Shown: positions 1 through 55,042 of the stretch, in pieces | Layout of the letters: each line of letters starts with the position of its first letter | How positions within the stretch are numbered: the stretch's first letter is position 1 | NCBI GenBank assembly: GCA_963969365.1 | Contig: OZ017752.1 | Coordinates: 930,001-994,000 of the forward strand | Direction: 5' to 3' | Source of the DNA: Asterochloris sp. CNOR1 | Lineage: Eukaryota > Chlorophyta > Trebouxiophyceae > Trebouxiales > Trebouxiaceae | DNA: 64,000 bases | Notes under the pieces: generated by a model | The model's input: only the letters and a program-made list of their open reading frames with translations | Databases searched by the model: none | What the model was told of the DNA's origin: nothing | Program-made: the position numbers and the translations under genes

Positions 1-3000
1 TACCAGAGGCCATCGCAGACGCAGTCAGCGAGCTGGGCCTGAATGTGGATGCCCTGGCGAGCTACAGCTCCCAGCTGCCGGCTCTGGCCGTCCAGCTTGC
101 TGTTGAGAGCGCAGGGCACGCGGGGGACCAAGCGGCCTCCAGTGCGGCCATCATGGCTGCTGCAGCCTTTGCCTCCCTCAGCGCAGAGGCAAGGGTGCTG
201 CGTGCCCAGGTGCACCGCTTTGAGACCCACCCGCCCGTGCTCCTGATGCACAACGGCTCCTCCGCACACAGCCTGCCGGCCCTGGTCTCAGAGCTGCACA
301 ACAGCCTGGCAGCTGTCGCCAGCAGCCGCAAAGGGGCGGTGCCCCCGCTGCTGCGGGTGCGCTCCCACCCCCTGCCGCTGACCCACGCCGAGAGTGTGCA
401 GCTCGACAATGTGCTGCTGGTGCTGGCTGCCATCTTACTGCTGGTGCCCTGGTGAGCCATTCTGCTGCATCCCCTTACAGTCACCTTTGTTCCACAGCGC
501 CGGCACACTCATGTCATGGAGTTGGCAGGCCATCATGGGGTGCATCTTTGCTTCACTGCTGGAATCACTTTGCCATGGCTGCCTGGCAGCACACTGTGAC
601 ATCGCTGCCACAGGGTGCTCCGTGTGCGCATCGGCTGCATCTCCATCGCAGTTGGCAGCATCAGCAGTTGGCTGCACTGCTCTGCTGAGCCAACAATGTC
701 AAGGAGCCGTGCCTCATGTGATCGGGTGCCTGGCTGCAGGTGCTACCTCACAGGAGCCTACTGCATTGCTCCAGTCGTGGAGCGCAGCTGCAACGCTTAC
801 CACATGCAGCTGCTGAGTGGCTGCCCCCCCATCATGTACTGGCTGGGCCACTATGTGTGGGACATGCTCTGCCACACTGTGGTGACAGTCCTGGCGATGG
901 CAGTCTTTGGAGTCTACGTGAGCCTCACTGCTCATGTGCTGTGTGCTGTTCGATTTGGTCAGCCCTCTGGCATGCACTGACTTGGCCTGAGCCACCCTGC
1001 ACATACCTTGTATGCTACGTGGGCCATCTGCTTCCCCAATTTCCACTGCAAGCCAGCTGCTCTCATTCCGTTTGGACACGCTGTGTGCAACTCACTCCTC
1101 AAGCCCCTGTTGCAAGCACCAACCTGTTTCAAGACACCCTGCATCTTGTGTGCTTCCAACTTCTCACATGTTAGGGGCATGTTAGGGGCTCAAGCCTGGT
1201 CTGGGCTAAGCTTGCCCCATTGCATTGTGCCCTGCTGTATGCAACAAACCAGTCTGACACGATGTGCCCTGCCTGCAGCAAGATGCCACCACAGTGGGCA
1301 CCCTGGACCAGGCCCTTGGCACATTTGTCATGCTGCTCTGCTATGGCCTGGGAGTCATCCCCCTCAGCTACTGCTTCTCCTTCGGCTTCACATCGCCCAG
1401 CGCAGCACAGGTGGGCAGTCAGATGCTCATGCATGCCCATGCATCTCCCATCGCAGCACAGGTAGCCGAGCGGACTTAACTACACGCTGCCAATCTGGCT
1501 CATGCTTTGCTGCTGGCGCTACCAGAGGTGCGCCCAGCAAGCAGCCTGGCAGAGATGCAGTCAGCAAGCAGCTGCAAAGCTTTCAAGTGTCAAGCCCTTC
1601 AGTGTGACTTCTGCACGGATCATGGAGAGTGCCTGTTCATGCTGCAGCTCTGTGCTGAGCATTGACAATTGGAGTGAGTGCCCCTGCAGGTTGCAACAGC
1701 AGGCATCAACTTTGTGACGGGGCTGGTGTTTGTGGTTGGCAGCTACGTGATGCAGGCCATCCCAGAAACCCAGGCGGCTCAAAAAGTGCTGGTGCACTTT
1801 GCGCGCCTCCTCCCAGCCTTCAACCTAGGAGAGGGTTTCATTGAGCTGACAGCGTGAGTGTCAACATGAGGAACCAGAGTGTGTCAGCCTTCTGCTGCTG
1901 CTGCTCTGAAGGTGGCCATGGCATTTCTGAGACATCTTGGGGCGAGGCCGCCTCAATCAGCTGCTGCTGTTGTGCTCGTACTGACTGTGGTAAGTTGGTG
2001 TGCTCCTGACATGTGCTGTGCTCATTGCAGGCACCATTTCCACTATGAGCTGGTCAAAATCCAGGCGACAAGCCACAGACGTGAGCACAATTGACCATGG
2101 AACTGCCCACTGCTGCAAGCTTGTCTGCATCAGCTGTTTTGCATCTGAACTCATCATATGTCTGACCAGTCTGTGCATTCCCTCTCTGCATGAGCTAGCC
2201 ACTGTATGCTCTGCAGTGCATATCTGGCCGACCTGTGCATGTGCAGATGGTGCCTGTCGGCATCAACTAGTTTTGCCTGTGTCCCAAGCTTGCATAGCGC
2301 GAGAAGCTGCCTGTGTTTGTGCCCTGCCGCCATTACGCATCTGTGAGAGTCATGAATCTGGATGTTGGCCTCTCTGAGGGGCACTGGCAAGACCAAAGCC
2401 CTCAATGGCACAGACCAGCATGGCAAGAATCTGACCTCCTGTGCTGCAGACCCTGAGGCCTACCTCCAGCGTTGGCGAAGCCGCAACAGCGTCATCAGGT
2501 GGAATGTCCTGGGGCGCCCCTGCAAATACATGCTGTACCAGGTGAGGCAGGCTCCAGGCGTGCCACGTTTGGTGATGCAAGCTGTGTGTCTGCTGCTGCA
2601 GCTAGACAATCTGCAAACAACAATCTGTCCAGCTGCATATTGATCAGTGGGGCATGTGGCTGCTGTGCAGGCTGTGCAGATCCAAGTACAGCTTGCCACA
2701 GCTGCAAGCTTGTATGGTGCCTGCGACACAGCCTGTCTTTTTCATGCGCCATAATGACTCCTTCCCAAGTTGCACTGTCTGTGTGCAGGCTGTGGCATAA
2801 GTTTGCACTGGTGCTTGTGCAGCACCTGCCAAAGGCACTCATCAGGGCTGCAGCAATGAGTGCTTCACAGGCTGCCCTGTCTGCTTCAGGCTGTGGGCCA
2901 CACTGCAAGGGCGCTGCTGCTGGGCAGCTGCCTGTGACAAGATGACTACTTCACAGGCTCTGCTTTGTCTGTGTGCAGGCTGTGGCATACTTCATGCTGG

Positions 3001-53700: not shown

Positions 53701-55042
53701 ATTGTCTCAGAGGTGGGGCGCACAGCAAGGGGCTCCTCCAACTCATGGCCGCCACCTGCAGCGCAAAGTGTGCTGTGGGACTGGCCAAGGCTTTGCAGAA
53801 GCCCTGTGCACCGCCAGGGCTCCTTTCAGCATGTGGCTGCCACCTGCAAACGACTTGAGTACTGGTCACTGAGTTTGAGGCATGCAATAATCTTGCAGAA
53901 GATGCAGGCACGGCGAGGCGCAGACCAGCCAATTCTACAGGCAATACCACTTCCAGCAGGCCAGCTGTGATGCAGCAACGGCAGCAGGCAGTGTAGCATC
54001 TGGCAATGACTACCAAGAGCCCACCCTTGGACATACCAGCCAGCTCGGGGTGTGACATGACAGAGGCTGCAGGCAGCAGCGCATCTGGCAGACCACACCA
54101 GAACCCCACCCTTAGTCACGATGGCCAGCTCGGGAGCAAACCCCTCCACGTGGTCCGCTTCCTTCTCCAGGAAGGAGAGGGGGATGAGCTGGGGGAAGTA
54201 GGCGTTCTGCACCCCCCGCTCCTTGAACCGGGCATTCAGGTACTGCTGCAGGCCTTCCCACATGGCATAGGCGTAGGGGCGCACGACAAAGGTGCCCCGC
54301 ACCGGGCCATTGTCCGCCAGCTGGGCTTCCCGTATCACGTCCAGGTACCACCTGCAGGAACACGCAGGTAGCAGCTGAGGAGCAGTGCCAGTAGTACACA
54401 GTCATGTGGCAGGGCAGGGGCTCCCAAGCCTCAAGGTGGGCCAGGCACAGGCACCAGCTCTGGAGCAGTGCCACGCGAGCTAAGAACCAGCTCTTTAACA
54501 CGCACGCCTGCGGCGCTGGTCATAGACATAAGTGAATCAGGGAGATCCAGACAGAGTGCAGGGCGCCAACAATTGGCCGAACTGTGGGCTGCTGGGAGCG
54601 ACAGGCTGGCGGCAGAGCAGCCCAGCCTCACACAGGAGCTGAAGCAGCACCTTGCAGGCAGATGGTGTCTGTGTGGTAAGCTGTTGCACAGCACCCTCAA
54701 ATACGTGCAGCCTAGATGATGAGGCTATCCCTTGCCAGACACAGCCAGGTGTGCAACACCAGGAAGCAAAAATGGGCAGTTCTGCACCTGTTGAAGTCCT
54801 CACTTCTGGCAGTGATGGACGAGCTACCCTTGCCGCCCTGCTTTTGCCCTTGCTGGCCCTTTTTCTGCTGCTTCTGCTGCTTCTGCTGCTGCCCTTCTGC
54901 TGGCTCCTGGACAATAGGCCCAGCAGCAGAAGCAGCTTGTGTTGAGAAGTTAGTTGTGTGCCTGCCCCTGTGTAGGTGCTGCCGGCGCAGGGACGGTGCA
55001 AAGCATGGCTGCTGCCATGCCACCTTTCCAAAGCATCTGCAT
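50748..55042 (-). CDS. Prolyl-tRNA synthetase (eukaryote/archaea-type)
   Basis: Class II synthetase charging tRNA-Pro. Exons (approximate, minus strand): about 54955-54785, 54352-54108, 53750-53545, 52993-52822, about 52308-52120, 51841-51680, 51372-51195, 51082 to about 50990, 50904-50748. Landmarks in order: [66 protein letters not shown] with [53 protein letters not shown], and the zinc-domain end [11 protein letters not shown] and VAIFAKAH. The N-terminus has a Lys/Gln-rich tract. The start is unresolved: the first ATG (55042) joins the frame only if an 85-nt intron with a CTAAC branch-like motif is removed. Possibly organellar or dual-targeted. Confidence 0.93.
53970..54155 (-). repeat. 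ProRS exon-end copy, about 95-bp period
   Basis: The exon end encoding [13 protein letters not shown] (54150-54108 and its donor side, to about 54062) is repeated at about 54060-53970. Shared blocks on the plus strand: GCAGGCAG.G..GCATCTGGCA, CCA...CCCACCCTT.G and CCAGCTCGGG. Confidence 0.8.

Follow-up and report, generated by a model that had tools for sequence, protein, structure and literature searches.

Introns of Asterochloris sp. CNOR1 hold decayed copies of their adjoining exon edges, probably left by old short tandem duplications

Many introns of this genome hold old, decayed copies of the adjoining exon edge. The gene models come from an ab initio gene finder that was trained on 264 kb of the 56.4-Mb genome and uses splice and coding signals alone; its predicted intron class surely takes in stretches of UTR and intergenic DNA, and some decoys are labelled exons. 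Introns entered the test of own edges when both exon flanks had at least 40 nt and the intron itself at least 60 nt, which 418 of the 619 predicted introns did (201 had short flanks or fell below 60 nt). At a score of at least 28, an intronic copy was found for 28 upstream and 27 downstream own edges, against 0.85 and 0.70 for random exon-intron pairs; the reverse complement of the own edge reached this score for 0 upstream and 2 downstream edges of the same 418 introns. In this sample of one genome a detectable copy thus accompanies 55 of the 836 exon edges tested, with about 1.6 expected by chance. The held-out set, 50 kb from five contigs outside training, gave 3 upstream and 4 downstream copies against 0.04 and 0.16 for random pairs (60 of 104 introns used, 44 left out). 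The preliminary description of this DNA had claimed that introns hold copies of their own exon edges and had proposed to set them against random exon-intron pairs; run on 418 introns, that comparison puts own edges far in excess, and the held-out contigs repeat it. All counts come from one genome and do not imply that the pattern exceeds that of other eukaryotes.

Edge copies in the window

The window, the whole 64-kb stretch analysed, contains 19 repeat clusters (score at least 36, lag 40-300), 13 of which touch a real exon edge, the other 6 being intron-internal (Table 1). The edge clusters belong to COG4 (4), the capping enzyme and V-ATPase B (2 each) and ABCA, ALG14, the RBM28-like gene, ProRS and the gene at 59.4 kb (1 each). 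Nine of the 13 are labelled as edge clusters by the gene finder itself; four were reassigned, namely ALG14 (labelled intergenic), ProRS and two COG4 pairs, the last two by a reading of the protein and hence putative. Five weaker edges have a lower score or appear in the gapped test only, so that the figure of more than 15 cases given in the preliminary description holds if they are counted (18) and fails for clear copies alone (13). An unassigned locus had also been listed there; the gene at 59.4 kb does carry an edge copy but lies beyond the span then covered. As to gene identities, the exons neighbouring ALG14 exon 6973-7031 match Pfam Alg14, and the motif VLVNGPGTCIPICVAAFLF is presumably that of ALG14; the capping-enzyme gene matches Pfam mRNA_cap_enzyme, and the RBM28-like gene model has RRM domains in a different part. 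The highest-scoring direct repeat of the window (score 130) is the intron-internal duplication at 28560..28922.

Table 1. Edge copies, corresponding real edges and intron-internal duplications in the window
Feature	Position	Strand	Identity, lag, score or basis
Weaker edge case, intron	1411-1689		score 30
Decayed copy of acceptor and ABCA exon 2979 start	2754..2799	+	83% to 2942-2989, lag 188
Second ABCA acceptor/exon-start copy	2856-2923	+	77% to 2942-3012, lag 86
Real acceptor and exon start, putative ABCA transporter	2942..3012	+	gene model, alignment
Decayed copy of ALG14 exon end and donor, just within downstream intron	6850..6941	-	79% over 92 positions, lag 96
Real exon of ALG14 (about 6973-7031) and its flanks	6946..7035	-	translates VLVNGPGTCIPICVAAFLF; overlooked by gene finder
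Copy of acceptor and capping-enzyme exon 10124 start	9899..9937	+	79%, lag 199
Second copy of capping-enzyme exon 10124 start	10019-10059	+	80%, lag 88
Real acceptor and exon start, capping enzyme	10098..10147	+	gene model, alignment
Copy of stretch near end of capping-enzyme exon 11182-11362	11490..11510	+	20/21 nt, lag 195
Real acceptor and exon start, RBM28-like gene	18188..18245	-	gene model, alignment
Copy of RBM28-like exon 18060-18240 start	18281..18330	-	82%, lag 93
Second RBM28-like exon-start copy, TGCAG kept	18374-18425	-	77%, lag 180
Weaker edge case, intron	19029-19548		score 40
Intron-internal pair	21984/22105		
Intron-internal pair	22514/22578		
Intron-internal tandem duplication without clear exon edge, unit about 190 bp	28560..28922	-	76% over 178 positions
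Weaker edge case, intron	35730-36321		score 32
Intron-internal pair	36147/36290		
Copy of COG4 exon 37016-37149 start	37206..37231	-	92%, lag 107
Second copy of COG4 exon 37016-37149 start	37337-37382	-	78%, lag 233
Putative COG4 exon-end copy (real: 37812-37854)	37712..37755	-	86%, lag 100; exon for gene finder, reassigned by protein reading
Copy of COG4 exon 39215-39375 end	39128..39159	-	91%, lag 100
Weaker edge case, intron	39376-39759		score 29
Putative copy of COG4 exon 40857-41051 end and donor	40738..40765	-	86%, lag 108; 12-bp exon for gene finder, reassigned by reading
Intron-internal pair	42515/42711		
Intron-internal tandem duplication, unit 67 bp	43765..43934	+	
Copy of V-ATPase B exon end and donor (real: 45111-45181)	45311..45381	+	82% over 71 nt, lag 200
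Decoy exon, copying the acceptor and start of V-ATPase B exon 46158	45962..46019	+	88%, lag 189; in-frame open
Further partial V-ATPase B copy	46105-46125	+	
Real acceptor and exon start, V-ATPase B	46151..46183	+	alignment, structure-sequence comparison
Copy of ProRS exon end and donor (real: 54065-54134)	53980..54049	-	73%, lag 85
Weaker edge case	57402		score 35
Copy of exon 59440-59625 end and donor (real: 59434-59466)	59352..59384	-	85%, lag 82

Character and age of the repeats

The repeats are direct in orientation, mostly local and spread over the sampled contigs; they cross exon-intron junctions and lose their splice motifs much as neutral sequence would. At a score of at least 36, direct repeats at lags of 40-600 total 111 where an order-3 Markov null gives 1, and 3 more lie at lags of 600-2000, while inverted repeats at lags of at least 40 number 2 (null 1); hairpins at lags below 40 number 29 (null 19). 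With the low-complexity filter off and a class-aware null, lags of 40-300 give 101 real repeats and 0 null ones. One direct pair in the window lies more than 2 kb apart, and 9 repeats at lags above 600 occur at a single held-out locus (L023:2109-3718). The pattern had been thought to be widespread, and over the sampled contigs it is: 12 of 13 bins of 20 kb contain 4-10 clusters and the remaining bin 1.

Close spacing and direct orientation are what short tandem duplications from break repair are expected to have, and both are found. So is the bounded unit size expected of them: of the 111 pairs, 3 have lags of 250-300 and 11 of 300-600. Some long lags may be between non-neighbouring copies within arrays. 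Since simulated detection finds most units above 100 bp (69-100% at divergence 0.15-0.20 and 46-83% at 0.25; 83-100% for units of 250-300 bp), limited detection does not explain the fall in lags above 250. A unit size of mostly 60-190 bp, as first proposed, finds no confirmation: lags drop strongly above 250 bp, but the lower end is set by detection. A period of about 95 bp is doubtful as a true mode: when corrected for detection, it is a peak at divergence 0.15-0.20 but the distribution is nearly flat over 40-100 bp at 0.25. A minisatellite array was considered and rejected, as 66 of the 82 clusters are a single pair and copy identities are mostly 70-90%; the other 16 have two or more pairs, and in some of them one edge was copied twice. 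One young array is seen in the held-out set (L023:545-744).

The process had been described as ongoing, a view that the ages do not favour: only 4 of the 55 edge copies are at least 90% identical, where a constant rate predicts 28-34%, and the burst of duplication appears to lie mainly in the past. Tandem duplications from break repair have breakpoints with little or no microhomology; no breakpoint here is fresh enough for a repair signature, the copies being too decayed.

The intron flanks beside the real junction and beside its copy are alike (identity 0.60, against 0.47 when shuffled; 32 of 53 at 0.6 or above, against 1), from which it follows that genomic DNA, not mRNA, was copied; the idea that the units are segmental duplications spanning the junction is upheld. 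Decay with distance from the real edge, also proposed, finds no support, since identity shows no trend over distance (Spearman 0.03, p 0.80, n=70). The copies retain GT in 21 of 28 cases and AG in 18 of 28 (22 and 23 of 28 with a tolerance of 3 nt), which is about neutral decay at 80% identity. They do seed decoy splice sites, as had been suggested: 15 of 28 donors and 16 of 28 acceptors reach the 5th percentile of real-site scores or exceed it, compared with 12% and 7% of random intronic positions.

Origin of the copies

We suggest, at a probability of roughly 0.6, that the copies are the fossil remains of short tandem duplications that arose locally in non-coding DNA, visible through the conserved exon edges. 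A segment, commonly of 60-140 bp, would have been copied next to itself on DNA, most likely when staggered breaks or paired nicks were repaired by fill-in. Duplications within coding sequence would mostly have been purged, while those in introns or spanning an exon-intron edge would survive, since the outer splice site is still usable; the cell presumably keeps using this original site, leaving the protein unchanged and the intron longer by one unit, and the extra copy would thereafter decay neutrally. The edges would stand out at least in part because the conserved exon side remains available for comparison, while two copies within an intron would blur each other at double the rate.

How far placement was uniform, as duplications from break repair without ties to any one sequence class would have it, depends on the measure. 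The 264 kb contain 70 exon-intron and 26 intron-internal pairs (54 and 19 as clusters), and exon-exon pairs are depleted (13 against 24.8 expected); in the held-out set the clusters stand at 9 to 4. Simulated uniform duplication gives an exon-intron to intron-internal ratio of 0.9-1.8, and at least 3.0 only at a single-age divergence of at least 0.25. It is possible, though clearly less probable than the reading above, that exon-intron edges are themselves duplication hot spots, for example through nicks, R-loops or nucleosome edges that accompany transcription or splicing, and that introns grow outward from their edges. Junction pairs do lie about 1.5-2.5-fold above most uniform simulations, multi-pair clusters with two copies of one edge would fit, and intron-internal pairs sit closer to edges than sliding them expects (mean rank 0.38, p 0.036, n=28), a result that looser cut-offs weaken (mean rank 0.41-0.43, p 0.07-0.22); in introns of at least 400 bp the 8-mer signal stands at 2.6-2.9 up to 100 bp from the edge and deeper than 150 bp does not exceed the control level that it shows at lags of 250-320. 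Against this, the conserved exon side makes such pairs easier to detect, held-out pairs are 13 exon-intron to 14 intron-internal, 7 of 28 intron-internal pairs sit at least 100 bp from both edges, and identity lacks a gradient over distance. The 8-mer excess at lags of 60-130 is 1.5-3.0 for intron-internal and 1.1-3.6 for exon-intron pairs, and the observed ratio of the latter to the former, about 0.6 (by hand), falls within the 0.4-1.0 of simulated uniform placement, indicating no junction preference. Composition may account for some of the intronic 8-mer excess, since the excess is also raised at lags of 10-60 (1.5-2.5) and within exons at lags of 60-130 (1.2-2.3). The alignments thus leave a junction preference of up to about 2.5-fold and the 8-mer measure none, and the two disagree.

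Three other readings are far less probable. That the copies are retained because decoy splice sites or exons regulate splicing seems quite improbable: roughly half of the copies have kept scores typical of real sites, and the decoy exon of V-ATPase B has an open frame, but motif retention (39 of 56) is at the level of neutral decay, with neither loss nor retention beyond it seen. Two decoys would, moreover, insert residues into conserved proteins, 17 absent from the best-matching solved V-ATPase B and, in the copy read by the gene finder as part of an exon, about 14 absent from the best-matching solved ProRS. Slightly less credible still is that exonic AGGT segments gave rise to the introns through tandem duplication, with the copies as birth marks. 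That route is published with in vivo support (PMC3443670), the CAG|GTGAG and TGCAG|G junctions of this genome would permit it, and own donor and acceptor regions match above random pairs (12 against 4.4 at a score of at least 20). Shifted lags in the same 586 introns, however, do nearly as well, with 9.5 matches at score 20, and with 3.3 at score 24 where the unshifted lag has 6, and at least three of the six score-24 matches are, on reading, doubtful gene calls. At a score of at least 26, repeats with a lag equal to intron length number 4 among these introns, against 2.5 for shifted lags and 0.4 for random pairs; the proposed link to a route for new introns finds no support, there being no excess over shifted lags. 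Least probable are introners or another dispersed mobile element bearing splice sites. Introners are reported from green algae (PMC9860276), but each copy here resembles its own exon edge and not random ones, and four stretches searched against the whole 56 Mb gave no dispersed copies. The only non-self match reported for the 983-bp V-ATPase B intron was its own exon end (82%); one repeat and two other introns matched themselves only. Such searches are insensitive to decayed copies, as known internal tandem copies went unreported in two of them.

If the copies are fossils of old tandem duplications, conserved exon edges serve as fixed points by which they can still be read amid otherwise blurred sequence, and a single genome can yield an estimate of the share of local duplication in intron length. 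The genome also offers a natural splicing experiment, with about thirty decoy donors and acceptors of near-normal strength near real ones in 264 kb, and a warning for annotation, the gene finder having made exons of decoys in V-ATPase B and ProRS. Were the edges truly hot spots, this lineage's introns would have grown by repeated junction copying, the genome would be loaded with strong decoys, and the spliceosome would have to ignore them by exon definition.

Comparison with known systems

Among the literature cited on small tandem duplications is the rice study of Vaughn and Bennetzen (2014), and on tandem duplication supplying splice-site copies Gao and Lynch (2009) and Hellsten (2011). AGGT intron gain likewise draws its splice-site copies from tandem duplication, but here repeats at a lag equal to intron length are not in excess over shifted lags. 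Introners (PMC9860276) share with our introns a resemblance to other sequence and the carrying along of splice sites; they are dispersed, whereas the copies here are local. In potato RdRp (PMC4974935) a tandem duplication reaches across an intron-exon boundary and leaves a splice site in two copies, as here; that is a single recent case that created a new intron, whereas our cases are many, decayed and seemingly lengthen existing introns. Small tandem duplications also arise in break repair, by fill-in through CST-guided Pol alpha-primase and end joining (PMC8355091), and are likewise head-to-tail, local and of bounded size. The insertions described there are under 100 bp, while the lags here are commonly 60-140 bp, and the copies here, now at 70-90% identity through decay, show up best at exon edges.

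Exon-edge copies in introns

Introns in this genome carry far more copies of their own exon edges than random pairing predicts. We analysed the window (C7:930001-994000) with a further 200 kb, some of it adjacent and the rest from contigs C1-C5, and held out 50 kb from C10, C12, C14, C16 and C18. We aligned 418 of the 619 introns flanked by exon on both sides with the end of the upstream exon and the start of the downstream exon, using at most 100 nt of each. At a score of at least 28, the own edge gave 28 upstream and 27 downstream matches. Random exon-intron pairs gave 0.85 and 0.70, and the reverse-complemented own edge 0 and 2; in the held-out contigs, 3 and 4 of 60 introns matched (0.04 and 0.16 at random). 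Self-alignment, independent of gene models, found 111 direct repeats at lags of 40-600 versus 1 in a Markov null; inverted repeats at lags of at least 40 (2 versus 1) and short hairpins (29 versus 19) were also counted. The preliminary description, which reported decayed duplicates of exon edges in adjoining introns and proposed this comparison with random pairs, therefore captured a genuine pattern and gave a good account of it.

The genome has 56,383,464 bases in 21 contigs, and G+C in the window is 55-61%. Two genome papers give 56 Mb, a G+C of 56-62% in 98% of the genome and 9 introns per gene for a lichen alga, Asterochloris (PMC6652019), and 57 Mb in 18 chromosomes for A. mediterranea (PMC12542154). 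Our purpose-written, self-training hidden Markov gene finder, run on the 264 kb, predicted 622 introns (median 201 bp), with the consensus CAG/GTGAG at the donor and CTGCAG/G at the acceptor. It is fallible, because it put 94% of the sequence into genes and called some decoys exons. All seven window proteins or protein parts scanned matched a Pfam family: capping enzyme, Alg14, COG4, ATP synthase alpha/beta family (V-ATPase B), RRM, Memo and, for ProRS, class II tRNA synthetase with anticodon domain. ABCA and RBM28 are names given in the preliminary description.

The copies are segments of DNA running across the junction, because the intron-side flanks are also alike. In alignments reaching an edge, the 40 intronic nt at the real junction and the 40 nt beside the copy share 0.60 identity (0.47 when shuffled), and 32 of 53 such flanks reach at least 0.6, against 1 when shuffled. 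The copies are mostly local: a genome search with the 983-bp V-ATPase B intron reported two matches: the intron itself and, at 82%, the end of its upstream exon with the donor. The ALG14 repeat, an ABCA intron and the intron at 28.6 kb in the window matched themselves alone, in searches that left their known internal copies unreported, so decayed copies elsewhere could also escape. Among the 111 pairs, 3 have lags of 250-300 bp and 11 of 300-600 bp; as detection rises with unit length, the drop above 250 bp is real, and the lower end of the unit-size range is limited by detection. The detected copies account for at least 6,975 of the 154,787 intron bases and overlap at least 92 of the 622 introns.

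Coordinates of individual features
Location	Feature	Remarks
Window 3952-4038	Near-perfect palindrome of about 87 bp in an ABCA intron	88.6% self-complementary; sole inverted repeat of the window in self-search at E 1e-3
Window 14471-31815	Several genes fused into one model by the gene finder	Presumably phosphoglycerate-mutase-like, two WRKY domains, RBM28-like and membrane protein; RRM domains Pfam-backed
L002 (sampled stretch) 4969-5151	Two successive predicted introns, 88 and 89 bp	Resemble tandem copies of one GTG-to-CAG unit; may be a misread tandem repeat
L023 (held-out stretch, C12) 545-744	Young tandem array, 68-bp unit, 96% identity	Lies in predicted exon sequence; sole clearly recent case among 32 held-out matches
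L023 2109-3718	Cluster of diverged direct repeats, lags about 90 to 1500 bp	One held-out locus, an exception to locality: nine repeats at lag >600, not strictly short-range, unlike other loci; host stretch has lower G+C (53.8%)

Junction preference and visibility

Were edges struck more often than the rest, this would be the interesting part. Aligned pairs with one exon-bearing copy number 70, against 44.7 expected by random shifting; intron-internal (26 versus 36.6), exon-exon (13 versus 24.8) and intergenic pairs (2 versus 5.0) are fewer than expected. Clusters stand at 54 exon-intron to 19 intron-internal; in the held-out sample clusters stand at 9 to 4 and single pairs at 13 to 14. Part of this surplus is a visibility effect, because the conserved exon side keeps a pair recognisable for longer. 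Uniform duplication simulated under several age models gives an exon-intron to intron-internal ratio of 0.9-1.8, reaching at least 3.0 at a single divergence of at least 0.25 and nowhere else.

Exact 8-mer matches at lags of 60-130 exceed background 1.5-3.0-fold within introns, 1.1-3.6-fold in exon-intron pairs and 1.2-2.3-fold within exons; introns are raised at lags of 10-60 too, so composition contributes to their excess. The 8-mer ratio between the exon-intron and intron-internal classes, about 0.6 by hand calculation, lies inside the simulated 0.4-1.0, and in long introns the signal more than 150 bp away from an edge does not exceed its own control, on small counts. Free of exon-visibility bias is the position of intron-internal pairs, which lie somewhat nearer the edges than sliding within the same intron predicts (mean rank 0.38, p 0.036, n=28; 7 of 28 at least 100 bp from both edges); at a score of at least 30 in introns of at least 400 bp, the mean rank is 0.43 (p 0.22, n=34). 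There is some support for a junction preference of up to about 2.5-fold, although it is the less probable reading.

Age, decoy splice sites and intron birth

Identity reaches at least 90% in 4 of 55 pairs at a score of at least 44, whereas simulation places that share at 28-34% under a constant rate and 0-1% after an old burst. Most of the duplication is therefore old and some cases are younger, which does not support the ongoing process that had been proposed. Nor do copies decay with distance from the real edge, as was claimed (Spearman 0.03, p 0.80, n=70).

The suggestion that copies seed decoy splice sites fared better. Among copies with the junction inside the alignment or at most 12 nt from it, the 5th percentile of real-site scores is reached by 15 of 28 donors and 16 of 28 acceptors; random intronic positions reach it in 12% and 7% of cases. 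By these scores, the decoys are convincing as splice sites. The gene finder took two as exons, giving insertions of 17 residues in V-ATPase B and about 14 in ProRS relative to the best-matching solved structures. Splice motifs are retained in 39 of 56 copies (about 0.64 expected at 80% identity per base), so their loss roughly follows neutral decay.

Such duplication had also been viewed as a route to new introns. The AGGT model predicts a repeat lag equal to intron length. Among 586 introns, such repeats number 12 at a score of at least 20 (9.5 at shifted lags, 4.4 in random pairs) and 4 at a score of at least 26 (2.5 and 0.4). Lags equal to intron length are not clearly richer in repeats than other lags in these introns, and we do not retain the copies as marks of intron birth.

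Origin and relation to known duplications

An ordinary mutational process would explain the copies most economically, with old duplications kept visible by conserved exon edges, which would act as a lens. Among titles and abstract openings of openly licensed papers, we found none that describes intronic exon-edge copies as a genome-wide set, which hints that such a set is new to the literature. Small tandem duplications are a known product of staggered-break repair via fill-in synthesis and end joining (PMC8355091), and in a potato gene a tandem duplication crosses an intron-exon boundary (PMC4974935). We suggest that the copies here would be the same kind of event, a break-repair tandem duplication crossing the exon-intron boundary.
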